Source of the DNA: a virus | Direction: 5' to 3' (one strand) | Virus record (IMG/VR): IMGVR_UViG_3300025030_000283 | Coordinates: 1 to 36,285 of that record | DNA: 36,285 nucleotides | Shown: positions 31,832 to 36,285 of the stretch, one piece after another | Position numbering within the stretch: position 1 is the first letter of the stretch | How the letters are laid out: each line of letters begins with the position of its first letter | Program-made: the position numbers and the translations under genes | The notes under the pieces: generated by a model | What the model saw: the letters and a program-made list of their open reading frames with translations, nothing else | What the model was told of the DNA's origin: nothing | Databases searched by the model: none

Positions 31832-32604
31832 TGCCTTTTGCCGTGCCGTCATACGATGAGTTGCTGCAGGCCATCCTTACCGACTACATCAACCAGTTCC
31901 CCGGAGCCGACACCTCCAAGGGCTCCCTGATCTACGTGAAGTCGGCCGCCATCGCCTCGGCCTTCTGGGGGCTGTATCAGCACCAGCGCTGGATCGCCAA
32001 CCAGGCGTTTCCTGACACGGCCGATACAGAGAATCTTGAGCATCATGCCTGGGTGAGAGGTATCACCAGGAAGGCCAACGAGACCGACGCCGATCTGCTG
32101 GCCCGGCTGCTGGAGTACATCCGTCGCCCGCCTGCTGGCGGCAACAAGCATGACTACGTCAAGTGGGCTCTGGAAGTGACCAACGTAAAGGCCGCTTACT
32201 GCATACCCCTAGGGCAGGGGCTCGGGTCGGTCGACGTGGTGATAGTGGCTGATCCGTCCACCGGTAGCGACATCCCCAGCGCGGAGCTGCTAGAGGAGGT
32301 GCGGGCCTACATAGACGACCTCCGGCCGGTGACAGCCAAGTACCTCCGGGTGCTCGCGCCCGTGATTCTGACCCAGAATGTGACCATCGAGGGGGCCGGC
32401 ACCAACTACAATGCCGTTCAGACCGCCCTCGATATCGCCGCCTACCTCGAAGGTTTCACGCCTGGTCAGACGCTGTATCGCAGCCAGCTGGGAAACTTCG
32501 CCATCCTGAACGGTGCGGATGATGTCACTGTCACCCTCCCGGCGGCCAATGTGGTGTCTACCCCGATGCAGATCATCCGCCCTGGAGTGATCAATGTTAC
32601 ATAA
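31831..32604 (+). CDS. Baseplate J-like protein (Mu gp47-like), shorter than usual
   Basis: 257 residues. Opening AVPSYDELLQAILTDYINQFPGADTSKGS and LEHHAWVRGITRKANETDADLLARLLEYIRRPPAGG are typical of the gpJ/gp47 family (T4 gp6-like wedge). At 257 residues it is shorter than many gp47 proteins, which are usually above 330; the ending is intact and overlaps the next gene by 11 bases, so it seems a compact version rather than a truncated one. Confidence 0.9.
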   Translation: MPFAVPSYDELLQAILTDYINQFPGADTSKGSLIYVKSAAIASAFWGLYQHQRWIANQAFPDTADTENLEHHAWVRGITRKANETDADLLARLLEYIRRPPAGGNKHDYVKWALEVTNVKAAYCIPLGQGLGSVDVVIVADPSTGSDIPSAELLEEVRAYIDDLRPVTAKYLRVLAPVILTQNVTIEGAGTNYNAVQTALDIAAYLEGFTPGQTLYRSQLGNFAILNGADDVTVTLPAANVVSTPMQIIRPGVINVT

Positions 32605-33139
32605 GGAAGCTTTGAAACTGCTTACGCCTCTGGCGCTGGGAGGTGGCCATGATCGGGATATCGCCATCGAAGGGGGGCACCTCGACCAGGCTGCCGGACG
32701 TGGCAGCGACCTTCTCGCCGAGCAATTCGCCAGCAGTGCGTTTGAAGTTCTGGAAGCATGGGAGAGGAGCTATGCCACCGCGCCGCTGTATGACGACTCG
32801 GTGCAGGTCAGGCGGAATCGGGTAGTGCAGAAGATGAGCGAATTGGGCCGGCTTGATCGCGCCTACTTTGTCCAGATGGCCGCCGTCCTCGGGTACGACA
32901 TCATCATCGAGGAGCTTAGTCCATTCATGCCGGGTTGGAGCGGAGCTGGGGACGAGTTGGGGGATGACGACTCGGACTGGTGCTGGCGGGTTTATTATGC
33001 AGAGGCCGACGCCTATGTCTTTCGGGCAGGCGAGTCTCTAGCCGGTGAATTGCTGAGCTACTCACTGGCGGATCTGATGCAGCAGATGCTTGAAAACCTG
33101 AAGCCGGCAGACACATTCGTCGAATTTATCGAGGTATAG
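32594..33139 (+). CDS. DUF2313 tail protein (YmfQ / Mu gp48-like)
   Basis: 181 residues from ATG 32594. LAEQFASSAFEVLEAWERSYATAPLYDDSVQVRRNRVVQKMSELGR in outline matches DUF2313; the middle has a Trp/Asp-rich loop (DDDSDWCWRVYYAEAD). It belongs to the T4 gp53/gp6-associated wedge set and precedes the fibre gene as in Mu. Confidence 0.9.
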   Translation: MLHKEALKLLTPLALGGGHDRDIAIEGGHLDQAAGRGSDLLAEQFASSAFEVLEAWERSYATAPLYDDSVQVRRNRVVQKMSELGRLDRAYFVQMAAVLGYDIIIEELSPFMPGWSGAGDELGDDDSDWCWRVYYAEADAYVFRAGESLAGELLSYSLADLMQQMLENLKPADTFVEFIEV

Positions 33140-33148
33140 GGGAGAGGT

Positions 33149-35089
33149 ATGCAGAGAATTGATTCCATTGATGGCTTTTTTCACGAAGGGAACCCGGCTA
33201 CTGGTCAGAAAGGAACTAAGGTTAAAGGTGATTGGCTAAATGCCATCCAGGAGGAGCTAGCTAAAGTCGTGGAGGCTTCCGGACAGATTCTGGATGAAGC
33301 AGAAAACAACCAGATGGAAGTGGCCCTGAGATCGGGCAGACTCCAAGATGTGATCTATGCCAGGGTTTATGACACTCTTGCCGAGGCCGATGCAGCGGCT
33401 GTGGCAGCTGGCAGGCGGCTGATCATTTCCACCCCCTGGGATATTCCGGTGGGGGCTACGCTCAATGCGTATGTGGAGATGATTCACGGAGGGGTGCTCA
33501 ATGTGGCCGGTGCCCTGAATGTCCCCAACGGATTGAAGGGCTGCCCTGGGTGCCTTAACCTTACAGGCACAGGGAATGTGCAACTTCCCCAGGGGGTGAT
33601 TTATCCTTACTTCTTTGTCGGCACTGATGCCAAGAAGGTGCAGGATGCCTTTAACACGGCTCTCAATTTTACCCCCTACACCATAGATTATGCAAACAAC
33701 AGGGAATTTAACGTCATCGTCTTTGACAGGATGTATGACATCACCGGCTCCACCATCCTGATAAAGAAAGCTGACGCCTCCACAAATGCCGTTTTACAAA
33801 GCATCGACAGGCGGCACCTCTATTTGATTGGCAAAGGGGGTGGCATCAGGAAGATGGATGGTGGTTTTGTGTTCAGTGTCCCTGACACAATCCTCATCAC
33901 TGGTGACATCACCTCCTCTGGCATGAAGTATCAGAGTTCCACGGGCTCAGGAGTGACTGTCTGGAACAATGACAAGCTCATCAGGGTGAGAAGCCTTGGG
34001 GACACTTACAGGGACATTGACCATGTAGGTGCAGCAAGAGGCCCCAGAGGGCCTGGTTATCCTGGCCTGTGCCAGTCTGTCACCTTCAAGGCATGCAATG
34101 TTACTGGTGGCACTGGCTGGGCCTGGGAGTTTGTGGATGCAGCAGATGTGTCCATTGACTACAACCTTGTGGAGATGAGGACCAGTGTTGGAGGGGATTC
34201 TGGTGCCATCAGGAATTACGAGGTTGTGAACGATCCCCCCACTTCACTGAACTCTGCCCTGAGAATCAGGGGCAATGTGATCGAGGGCATTTCTGGCACT
34301 GCATTAAGGTTGGGGGCCAGCACAGGGTTGACTGTAACTGGCAACTACCTTGAAGCCAATTTCTGCAACTTTGACTTCAGCAGTGTCTGCTACACCAACT
34401 CCCTGGGCGTGGTGGTGATTGGCAACTTCCTCAACCCTCTGAGTGTCAATGCTCCTGATCAGACCATTGCTCACATCAAGTGGGGCCACCTGGGTGGTGA
34501 TGGGGCAACATCCATAGGCAATGTTGGCATAGGCCAACCCCTCCACTCCATTGGCCCACAGGGTGTGGCCACAGGGGTGCTTTTCTCCACTGGTGATTAT
34601 GGCACCATCCATGCTGACACAGTAGGGTCTGCCCTGCTTGTGAAGGCCAAGGACATTGCCACCTTGAAAACACAGATGGCTGCTGTGGATGCTGAGACCA
34701 CTGGCAACTGGACTCCTGTGATAAAAGGAGCAACCACACCAGGGGCTAATGGCTATGCCCTTCAAGCAGGGGTGTGGCGCAAGAGAGGCAAGAGGGTGTT
34801 TTTCACCTGCATTGTGGCTCTGAATGCAAAGGATGCAGCAATGGCAGGGGCAATCTCAATTGGTGGTCTCACGCATGAAGCTCTGGCGGGGTATTACTTC
34901 CCCTGCACCATTGGCAAGCTCAGATACACAGCCCTGGGAGCTGGCAAGTTTGCAAAAGCTGCCAATGTCTTTGGCTTTGAAATCAAGCTCACTGAGCTGG
35001 CCACCAACAACACGGATTCTGATGAGGTGCCTGCAAACCTCACGGCCAACACCTATTACAGCATTTCGGGGACGTATTACACGGCATAA
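33149..35089 (+). CDS. Tail fibre protein, mosaic and CpG-poor
   Basis: 646 residues with GGGGAGAGG before the ATG. The N-terminal ~70 residues (IDSIDGFFHEGNP, VKGDWLNAIQEELAKVVEASG) are the baseplate-attachment domain of Mu-like fibres. The middle has beta-helix character (IRGNVIEGISGTALRLG, VTGNYLEANFCNFDF). The C-terminus begins at TGNWTPVIKGATTPG, a common receptor-binding tip domain. Base composition changes inside the gene: CpG is nearly absent from about 33830 to 35000, Arg is almost always AGG/AGA, and TG/CA steps abound. This marks the distal part as acquired or specially selected. Confidence 0.88.
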   Translation: MQRIDSIDGFFHEGNPATGQKGTKVKGDWLNAIQEELAKVVEASGQILDEAENNQMEVALRSGRLQDVIYARVYDTLAEADAAAVAAGRRLIISTPWDIPVGATLNAYVEMIHGGVLNVAGALNVPNGLKGCPGCLNLTGTGNVQLPQGVIYPYFFVGTDAKKVQDAFNTALNFTPYTIDYANNREFNVIVFDRMYDITGSTILIKKADASTNAVLQSIDRRHLYLIGKGGGIRKMDGGFVFSVPDTILITGDITSSGMKYQSSTGSGVTVWNNDKLIRVRSLGDTYRDIDHVGAARGPRGPGYPGLCQSVTFKACNVTGGTGWAWEFVDAADVSIDYNLVEMRTSVGGDSGAIRNYEVVNDPPTSLNSALRIRGNVIEGISGTALRLGASTGLTVTGNYLEANFCNFDFSSVCYTNSLGVVVIGNFLNPLSVNAPDQTIAHIKWGHLGGDGATSIGNVGIGQPLHSIGPQGVATGVLFSTGDYGTIHADTVGSALLVKAKDIATLKTQMAAVDAETTGNWTPVIKGATTPGANGYALQAGVWRKRGKRVFFTCIVALNAKDAAMAGAISIGGLTHEALAGYYFPCTIGKLRYTALGAGKFAKAANVFGFEIKLTELATNNTDSDEVPANLTANTYYSISGTYYTA

Positions 35090-35117
35090 GGAGAAGAGTT
35101 CAACAAAAGAGAAGCGA

Positions 35118-35147
35118 CCGGCGGCCATGTTGTAGCATGGACGCCGG
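35118..35147 (+). other. Hairpin after the tail fibre gene
   Basis: CCGGCG-G-CCATG (35118-35129) pairs with CATGG-A-CGCCGG (35136-35147) with one mismatch and loop TTGTAG. No T tract follows; a weak terminator or 3' stabiliser. Confidence 0.45.
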
Positions 35148-35170
35148 CCATCCAACCCACAGAAGCACCC

Positions 35171-35251
35171 TGTGAGCCAGACCAAGGCTTCCCACTCTGA
35201 TCAGAGCGGGGGGAGCCTACCACACCTTTAACCGAAATAAAAGGGCTCACA
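35171..35251 (+). promoter_or_regulatory. Nested stem structure with central GATC before the Dam-type gene
   Basis: TGTGAGCC (35171-35178) pairs with GGCTCACA (35244-35251). Inside, AGGCTTCCC (35185-35193) pairs with GGGGAGCCT (35210-35218, one G-T), and its head is the palindrome CTCTGATCAGAG (35195-35206), whose centre is a GATC Dam site. The structure ends five bases before the methylase ATG, where it covers the expected ribosome site. Confidence 0.5.
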
Positions 35252-35255
35252 CACA

Positions 35256-36029
35256 ATGAAGCATTATCCGGTACTAGCATGGCCGGGCGGCAAGCGCCGC
35301 TTGGCAAAGAAGTTACTCCCCCTGATCCAGAGTCGCCCGCACAGTTGCTACGTGGAAGAGTTTACCGGCGGCGGATCGATGTTCTTTATGAGAGAGCCGG
35401 CATCCGTCGAGGTCATAAACGATGCCAACTGTGAGCTGATCAACCTGTACCGCGTAGTAAAGCATCACCTTGAGGAGTTGATTAGACAATTTAAATGGGC
35501 CTTGGCCAGTCGGCAGCTGTACGAATGGGCCAAAGAGACGCCAGTCGAGGTGCTCACGGACATACAGCGTGCTGCGCGCTTTCTGTATTTGCAGAAGCTC
35601 TCTTTTGGCAGCAAGGTTAGCAGCCAGACCTTTGGCATATCGCCCAGCTCGCCGCCTAGGTTTAACATCCTCCGATTGGAGGAGGATCTAAGCCAGGCGC
35701 ATCTTAGACTGGCGCGGGTGTGGGTCGAGCACCTCGACTGGCTGAAGTGTCTCCAGAGGTGGGACCGAGAGTACACGCTTCACTTCATGGACCCGCCGTA
35801 CTGGCAGACCGAAGGCTACGGCGTGGACTTCCCCCTGACGGAGTACGAGAAGATCGCCGAGGCGATGCGCACCATGAAGGGCAGCGCCATCCTCACCATC
35901 AACGACCACCCCGAGATGCGGCGAATCTTCGAAGGCTTCAGCGTGGAGGCGGTGGATATCAGCTACACGATAGGGGGAGGAGGCAAGGGCACAAAACAGC
36001 GAGAACTGATCTTTAAGACGTGGTCCTAA
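35256..36029 (+). CDS. Dam-family N6-adenine DNA methyltransferase
   Basis: 257 residues. The Dam family order is visible: AWPGGKRRLAKKLLPLI (8-24), motif I EEFTGGGSMFF (34-44), and motif IV MDPPYW (178-183), with the helical target-recognition region between. These enzymes methylate adenine, often in GATC; the actual site here is unknown. No clear Shine-Dalgarno box is present before the ATG; the region is within the nested stems. As the last gene of the phage it sits where Mu has the mom modification operon, so protection of phage DNA is likely. Confidence 0.92.
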   Translation: MKHYPVLAWPGGKRRLAKKLLPLIQSRPHSCYVEEFTGGGSMFFMREPASVEVINDANCELINLYRVVKHHLEELIRQFKWALASRQLYEWAKETPVEVLTDIQRAARFLYLQKLSFGSKVSSQTFGISPSSPPRFNILRLEEDLSQAHLRLARVWVEHLDWLKCLQRWDREYTLHFMDPPYWQTEGYGVDFPLTEYEKIAEAMRTMKGSAILTINDHPEMRRIFEGFSVEAVDISYTIGGGGKGTKQRELIFKTWS

Positions 36030-36167
36030 CGGCGTGGCCGTCTAAGGGCGAGTCGGAAAAGTCCAGCCAGAAGCAAGCCTCGAACGCCTCAGGGATATCG
36101 ACATTTTGAAGGGGCGGAAATAGGCCGTAAATAATAACATTCAATATCAACAGTGCAGGTCATTTAA

Positions 36168-36213
36168 GGCGGATTCAATCAGGGTGCCAACCCCGTTGAA
36201 CCCGCCTTTTTTT
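36168..36213 (+). terminator. Strong rho-independent terminator at the right end
   Basis: GGCGGATTCAA (36168-36178) pairs with TTGAACCCGCC (36196-36206; one G-T pair), followed by seven T. The loop contains GTGCCAA (36184-36190), a copy of the transposase-site core, so terminator and right-end site overlap. Confidence 0.88.
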
Positions 36214-36272
36214 GAAGAAGGGGCAGTGCCAAAGCAAACGCAAAGTGGTGCCAAAGCGAGCGCGCCGCAACA
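36184..36272. repeat. Right-end transposase binding sites (attR-like)
   Basis: GTGCCAAAG at 36226-36234 and 36248-36256, exactly 22 bases apart, plus a weaker GTGCCAA at 36184-36190, all in one orientation, i.e. TTTGGCAC pointing inward from the right end. This matches Mu R1, R2 and R3. By analogy the right terminus lies about 17 bases beyond the outermost core, with a CA at 36271-36272 as candidate. The bases after that would be host DNA. Confidence 0.65.
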
Positions 36273-36285
36273 GCTGCTTTAGATT

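Follow-up and report, generated by a model that had tools for sequence, protein, structure and literature searches.

The fibre locus

The window, by which we mean the whole stretch of DNA analysed here, is a 36.3-kb viral sequence record belonging to a transposable, Mu-like phage. It encodes a Mu transposase with its AAA partner, GemA, Mor, gp27 and terminase, together with a Mu portal, F protein, baseplate and gp48 genes. The hosts are presumably geobacter-like. Directly 3' of gp48-like (PF10076) and baseplate J (PF04865) genes lies a tail-fibre gene, which is followed by an adenine methyltransferase gene (Table 1).

Fibre residues 1–65 match the tail fibre families phrog_1858 (E 9.9e-15), phrog_2617 and phrog_6683, identifying a virion anchor. 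The anchor and neck are homologous at the protein level to the fibres of relatives L002 and L034, and the neck also to that of L041. The fibre body yielded a weak, below-cut-off match to Beta_helix (PF13229, E 0.0011), and a single-sequence structure model had a pLDDT of 31, too low to use. Searches with the whole fibre, the neck and the C-terminal domain gave no useful match to the body, for which neither a homologue nor a donor of matching signature was found in phages, plasmids, viral contigs or 398 Pseudomonadota genomes.

The fibre of many relatives is encoded by two ORFs, a short one for the anchor and a separate, beta-helix-like one (L003:9741, L006:9731, L025:5368, L037:6411, L038:6417, L041:6736 and L049:4998). 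The separate ORF starts with an apparent Sec signal peptide, for example MKKGLFTLFLLITTALPALAA, which is odd in a virion protein.

Table 1 Features at the tail-fibre locus, in window positions
Feature	Position	Strand	Basis
Tail-fibre gene (646 aa), with a virion anchor at the N terminus, a neck, a beta-helix-like body and a C-terminal domain	33149–35089	+	PHROG, Pfam
Fibre anchor and neck, mildly CpG-depleted (o/e about 0.55)	33149–33812	+	Composition, protein homology
Exchanged cassette	33256–35106		DNA similarity to relatives lost and regained
Block of extreme CpG depletion (o/e 0.10), coding the receptor-binding fibre part	33815–35011	+	Counts, nulls, segmentation
Last fibre codons, CpG normal again (5 CG in 81 nt)	35012–35089	+	Counts, segmentation
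Covarying RNA element, about 155 nt	35103–35262	+	Covariation
D12-class N6-adenine DNA methyltransferase	35256–36029	+	Family matches

Size and limits of the CpG deficit

The distal fibre gene is set apart from the rest of the phage by its dinucleotide composition. The observed/expected (o/e) ratio of CpG is 0.10 in 33831–35000 versus 0.99 in 1–33148, confirming a contrast that an earlier note on this DNA had proposed by eye. TG and CA are in excess, as that note also held (1.67 and 1.80 versus 1.10 and 1.04 in the same intervals), while TA is low (0.33 versus 0.56), which it had not recorded, and GC is 0.537 versus 0.617. Its counts proved exact: 34021–34860 contains five CG dinucleotides (at 34219, 34231, 34282, 34408 and 34778) and 34409–34777 contains none. 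We know of no bacterial genome with a ratio as low as 0.10 at 54% GC. Across 722 kb of comparison sequence drawn from Mu-like phages and prophages, relatives and others alike, the lowest other 1.17-kb window had a ratio of 0.44, and comparison windows with at least 50% GC had a minimum of 0.46 (mean 1.09, s.d. 0.12). A literature search returned no report of such a CpG pattern in phage fibres.

Protein-preserving null models were computed over 33830–35008, where 8 CpG are observed. The expected number was 124.6 ± 6.3 with phage codon usage (minimum 103 in 2,000), 77.7 ± 7.0 with uniform synonymous codons and 56.8 ± 4.3 when the gene's own codons were shuffled (minimum 44). The own-codon shuffles, together with the codon-junction contexts described below, bear out the view that the dinucleotide and not codon choice alone is affected.

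Likelihood segmentation of CpG frequency over 32900–35400 was best with three segments, separated at 33812/33815 and at 35011/35013. The 5' part of the gene is less affected, as previously claimed, its first 0.68 kb being mildly depleted (0.55); in addition, the last 27 codons have normal CpG, a feature absent from the earlier account. Within the block the loss is strand-symmetric (TG 133, CA 120, CG 8), with CpG replaced by TpG and CpA on both strands.

Codon-level pattern

Third-position pyrimidines in the block follow the first base of the next codon, being T in 83 and C in 4 cases ahead of G, and C in 79 and T in 2 cases ahead of A. CpG contexts appear converted, NNC-G to NNT-G at 95% and NCG to NCA, and four-fold sites outside CpG contexts resemble those of the phage's structural genes, in which C- and G-ending codons are favoured. 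The earlier statement that ACG, GCG, CCG and TCG codons are all missing holds for CCG and TCG; two ACG and one GCG are present, and one CGC shows that CGN codons are not wholly missing either. Arginine is encoded by AGR in 14 of 15 cases. Because Arg was retained in this form, long-term purifying selection must also have acted, so that the state is old and the protein sequence was kept.

Codon models were compared by log-likelihood, computed without Arg. A one-parameter, deamination-type conversion model (q = 0.93) reached −319.9, one-parameter CpG avoidance reached −328.3, 8 log units worse, and two-parameter avoidance of CpG and TpA reached −320.3, on par with one-parameter conversion. Since the conversion model fits without a TpA term, the TpA deficit would be largely a residue of CpG conversion. 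The codon choices are thereby fitted by phage-like usage with near-complete conversion of CpG to TpG or CpA, as methyl-CpG decay would leave. Selection too acts via the commonest mutations, and the codon data therefore fit mutation and selection alike.

An exchanged cassette in a variable locus

Relatives with 79–83% identical baseplate J proteins, and remoter ones, carry very different fibres at the same site. DNA similarity to them ends between 33253 and 33513, the point varying by relative, and is regained at 35090–35106, just beyond the fibre stop codon, in most relatives reaching that far (later in L006, at 35154, and in L030 and L031, which are more distant, at 35286). As similarity is lost inside the gene and regained past its stop, the gene body constitutes an exchanged cassette, and both limits of the block, 33815 and 35011, fall inside the stretch over which the relatives' DNA is not similar. 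The homology break and the composition segments together support the suggestion that the distal fibre has its own history. This arrangement is like the mosaic exchange of receptor-binding fibre modules known from tailed phages, Mu-like ones included, in which a conserved anchor is joined to unrelated distal bodies and homology returns right after the gene, but the CpG deficit is far deeper over 1.17 kb than in the other exchanged fibre cassettes compared (0.10 versus at least 0.44).

The backbones of the relatives have CpG ratios near 1 throughout, and most of their fibres have ratios of 0.8–1.15. Their cassettes vary in both GC and CpG, with ratios from about 0.1 to above 1 in 300- to 1,170-nt windows. 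Depleted fibres occur in L034 and L003 (each about 0.45), where the loss is likewise bounded by the cassette, and weakly in L002 (0.60). The anchor and neck are common to the window, L002 and L034, whose bodies are unrelated, and are mildly CpG-depleted in all three, the first 200 bases of L034 being normal. CCGG is retained best in L002, L034 and the 5' part of the window fibre, and is absent from the block, so the two parts of the window fibre seem to have different histories.

The depleted fibres of L002 (6199–7890) and L034 (5569–7494), with their unrelated bodies, both come from metagenome 3300025013, and in both CCGG is retained better than other CpG contexts. Separately, a gene in a Chromobacterium prophage region (L010:2485–4596), at a locus of 64% GC, shows a CpG ratio of about 0.55 across 1.17 kb; its Lys/Gln/Ala-rich repeats may account for this low value.

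Origin of the depleted block

The depletion is specific to the dinucleotide, has sharp segment limits and lies within the limits of the cassette, and the phage backbone and most relatives' fibres are normal. We favour, with a probability of roughly 0.55, the reading that the distal fibre is a receptor-binding module swapped in from a CpG-poor source, where long-continued CpG loss gave it its signature. Recombination in the mosaic fibre cassette known from these Mu-like phages would have brought the module in, after it had long evolved in a CpG-removing genome, that of a phage or prophage and its host. The simplest route of removal would be cytosine methylation at CpG followed by deamination to TpG or CpA, and the module would retain the dinucleotide signature of its source, with adjustment to the new genome still to come. 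We infer both the acquisition of the signature elsewhere and its production by methyl-CpG deamination. The near equality of the TG and CA products supports this reading, being what a process on double-stranded DNA would give, and import accounts for where the block begins and ends, for the differences among relatives and for a backbone left unaffected. The gravest difficulty for import is that the searches described above turned up no relative of the body, and a ratio of 0.10 at 54% GC is lower than in any bacterial genome known to us. Also against import, codons outside CpG contexts are used as in the phage, although a foreign source would not have to share that usage. Moreover, the mild depletion of the anchor and neck in three fibres with unrelated bodies could reflect an effect of the locus and not a single donor.

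With CpG in deficit and TG and CA correspondingly in excess on the two strands, the pattern is like the methyl-CpG decay of vertebrate-type genomes; unlike that decay, it extends over only 1.2 kb, within a phage gene, and no CpG methylase is known in the phage. A phage-encoded CpG methylase was considered and rejected: neither the phage nor its relatives yielded a C5-methyltransferase (PF00145), and the enzyme encoded downstream methylates adenine, not cytosine, and so is not the cause of the decay. Restriction-site avoidance was likewise rejected, because the block has lost every CpG context and not a single motif.

Selection against CpG acting in place on the fibre gene, for example through a CpG-sensing host defence or nuclease that meets the transcript or the DNA, is an unlikely alternative to import. 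Avoidance of CpG and UpA occurs in RNA viruses, and the block is like CpG- and UpA-depleted vertebrate RNA viruses in having low CpG and TpA across codon junctions; unlike them, it belongs to a single gene of a double-stranded DNA phage of bacteria, to which the vertebrate sensing mechanism is inapplicable. The depletion common to three fibres with unrelated bodies at one locus (the window, L034 and L002), the long constraint evident in AGR-coded Arg and the low TpA all speak for selection in place. Against it, most relatives have normal fibres at this locus, the remainder of the phage is unaffected, NCA codons are commoner than avoidance under the phage's codon preferences would predict, and one-parameter avoidance fits worse than conversion.

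More broadly, a process acting only at the fibre locus, whether selection against CpG or targeted conversion, might strip receptor-binding genes and spare other parts of the genome. We retain this reading, doubtful as we judge it, because three unrelated bodies at the site share the trend, to different degrees. We hold it similarly doubtful that the body came from, or via, an ordinary bacterial or archaeal genome low in CpG, its signature being that genome's style with no methylation involved. Low-CpG genomes exist, and avoidance of CpG and TpA on uniform codon use nearly matches the fit with phage-like use (−344.1 versus −335.0); yet the depletion exceeds what, to our knowledge, such genomes show, and non-CpG codon choice leans to the phage's C- and G-ending codons.

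Very improbable, in our judgement, is a targeted deaminase or methylase that converts fibre CpG to TpG and CpA and thereby varies the fibre. Strand-symmetric replacement restricted to the receptor-binding part is what such an enzyme might leave, but the window and its relatives lack serine invertases (PF00239) as well as PF00145 enzymes, and AGR-coded Arg indicates constraint and not diversification. Nor is there a template-like repeat within 32500–36285, so template-directed variation was also rejected. An invertible segment of the Gin/Cin type was rejected too: with no invertase at hand, its candidate 37-nt inverted repeat (33977–34013 and 35168–35204) scores 15.5, a value reached in 2 of 30 shuffles, and the downstream arm belongs to a conserved intergenic element. 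An assembly or sequencing artefact is barely credible, for although this is a metagenome-type virus contig of which a second copy was not seen, a single intact 646-codon frame spans both limits with anchor homology kept, and milder cases occur on independent contigs.

If the module was imported, as we favour, the block is a tracer of an unrecognized CpG-poor gene pool that trades receptor-binding modules with this phage group, recognizable by GC of about 0.54, CpG of about 0.1, TpA of about 0.33 and C- or G-ending codons. If CpG was instead lost in place, a single phage gene is under pressure at the dinucleotide level.

A structured RNA before the adenine methyltransferase gene

Between the fibre and the methyltransferase gene lies a covarying RNA element, with members in the window, L003, L006, L029, L030, L031, L034, L037, L041 and L057–L060. 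Both sides change in 15 of 24 pairs across these 13 sequences, and 89% of cells are paired versus 35–48% when the alignment is slid, both figures coming from an alignment fitted to the model; RNAalifold on an independent MAFFT alignment of seven elements gave such two-sided changes in 8 of 24 pairs. The element had no Rfam match. A model built from seven phages re-finds it in L030, L031 and 3 of 299 Pseudomonadota genomes. In L030, L031, L057 and L058 it stands immediately 5' of an ORF that resembles the methyltransferase and was assigned to its type by eye from a conserved PWIGGKRRL or PWMGGKTRL start. One helix pairs UGUGAGCC with the bases immediately 5' of the methylase start codon. This long-range helix would occlude the start, which suggests a candidate cis-regulatory element with predicted translational control of the methylase.
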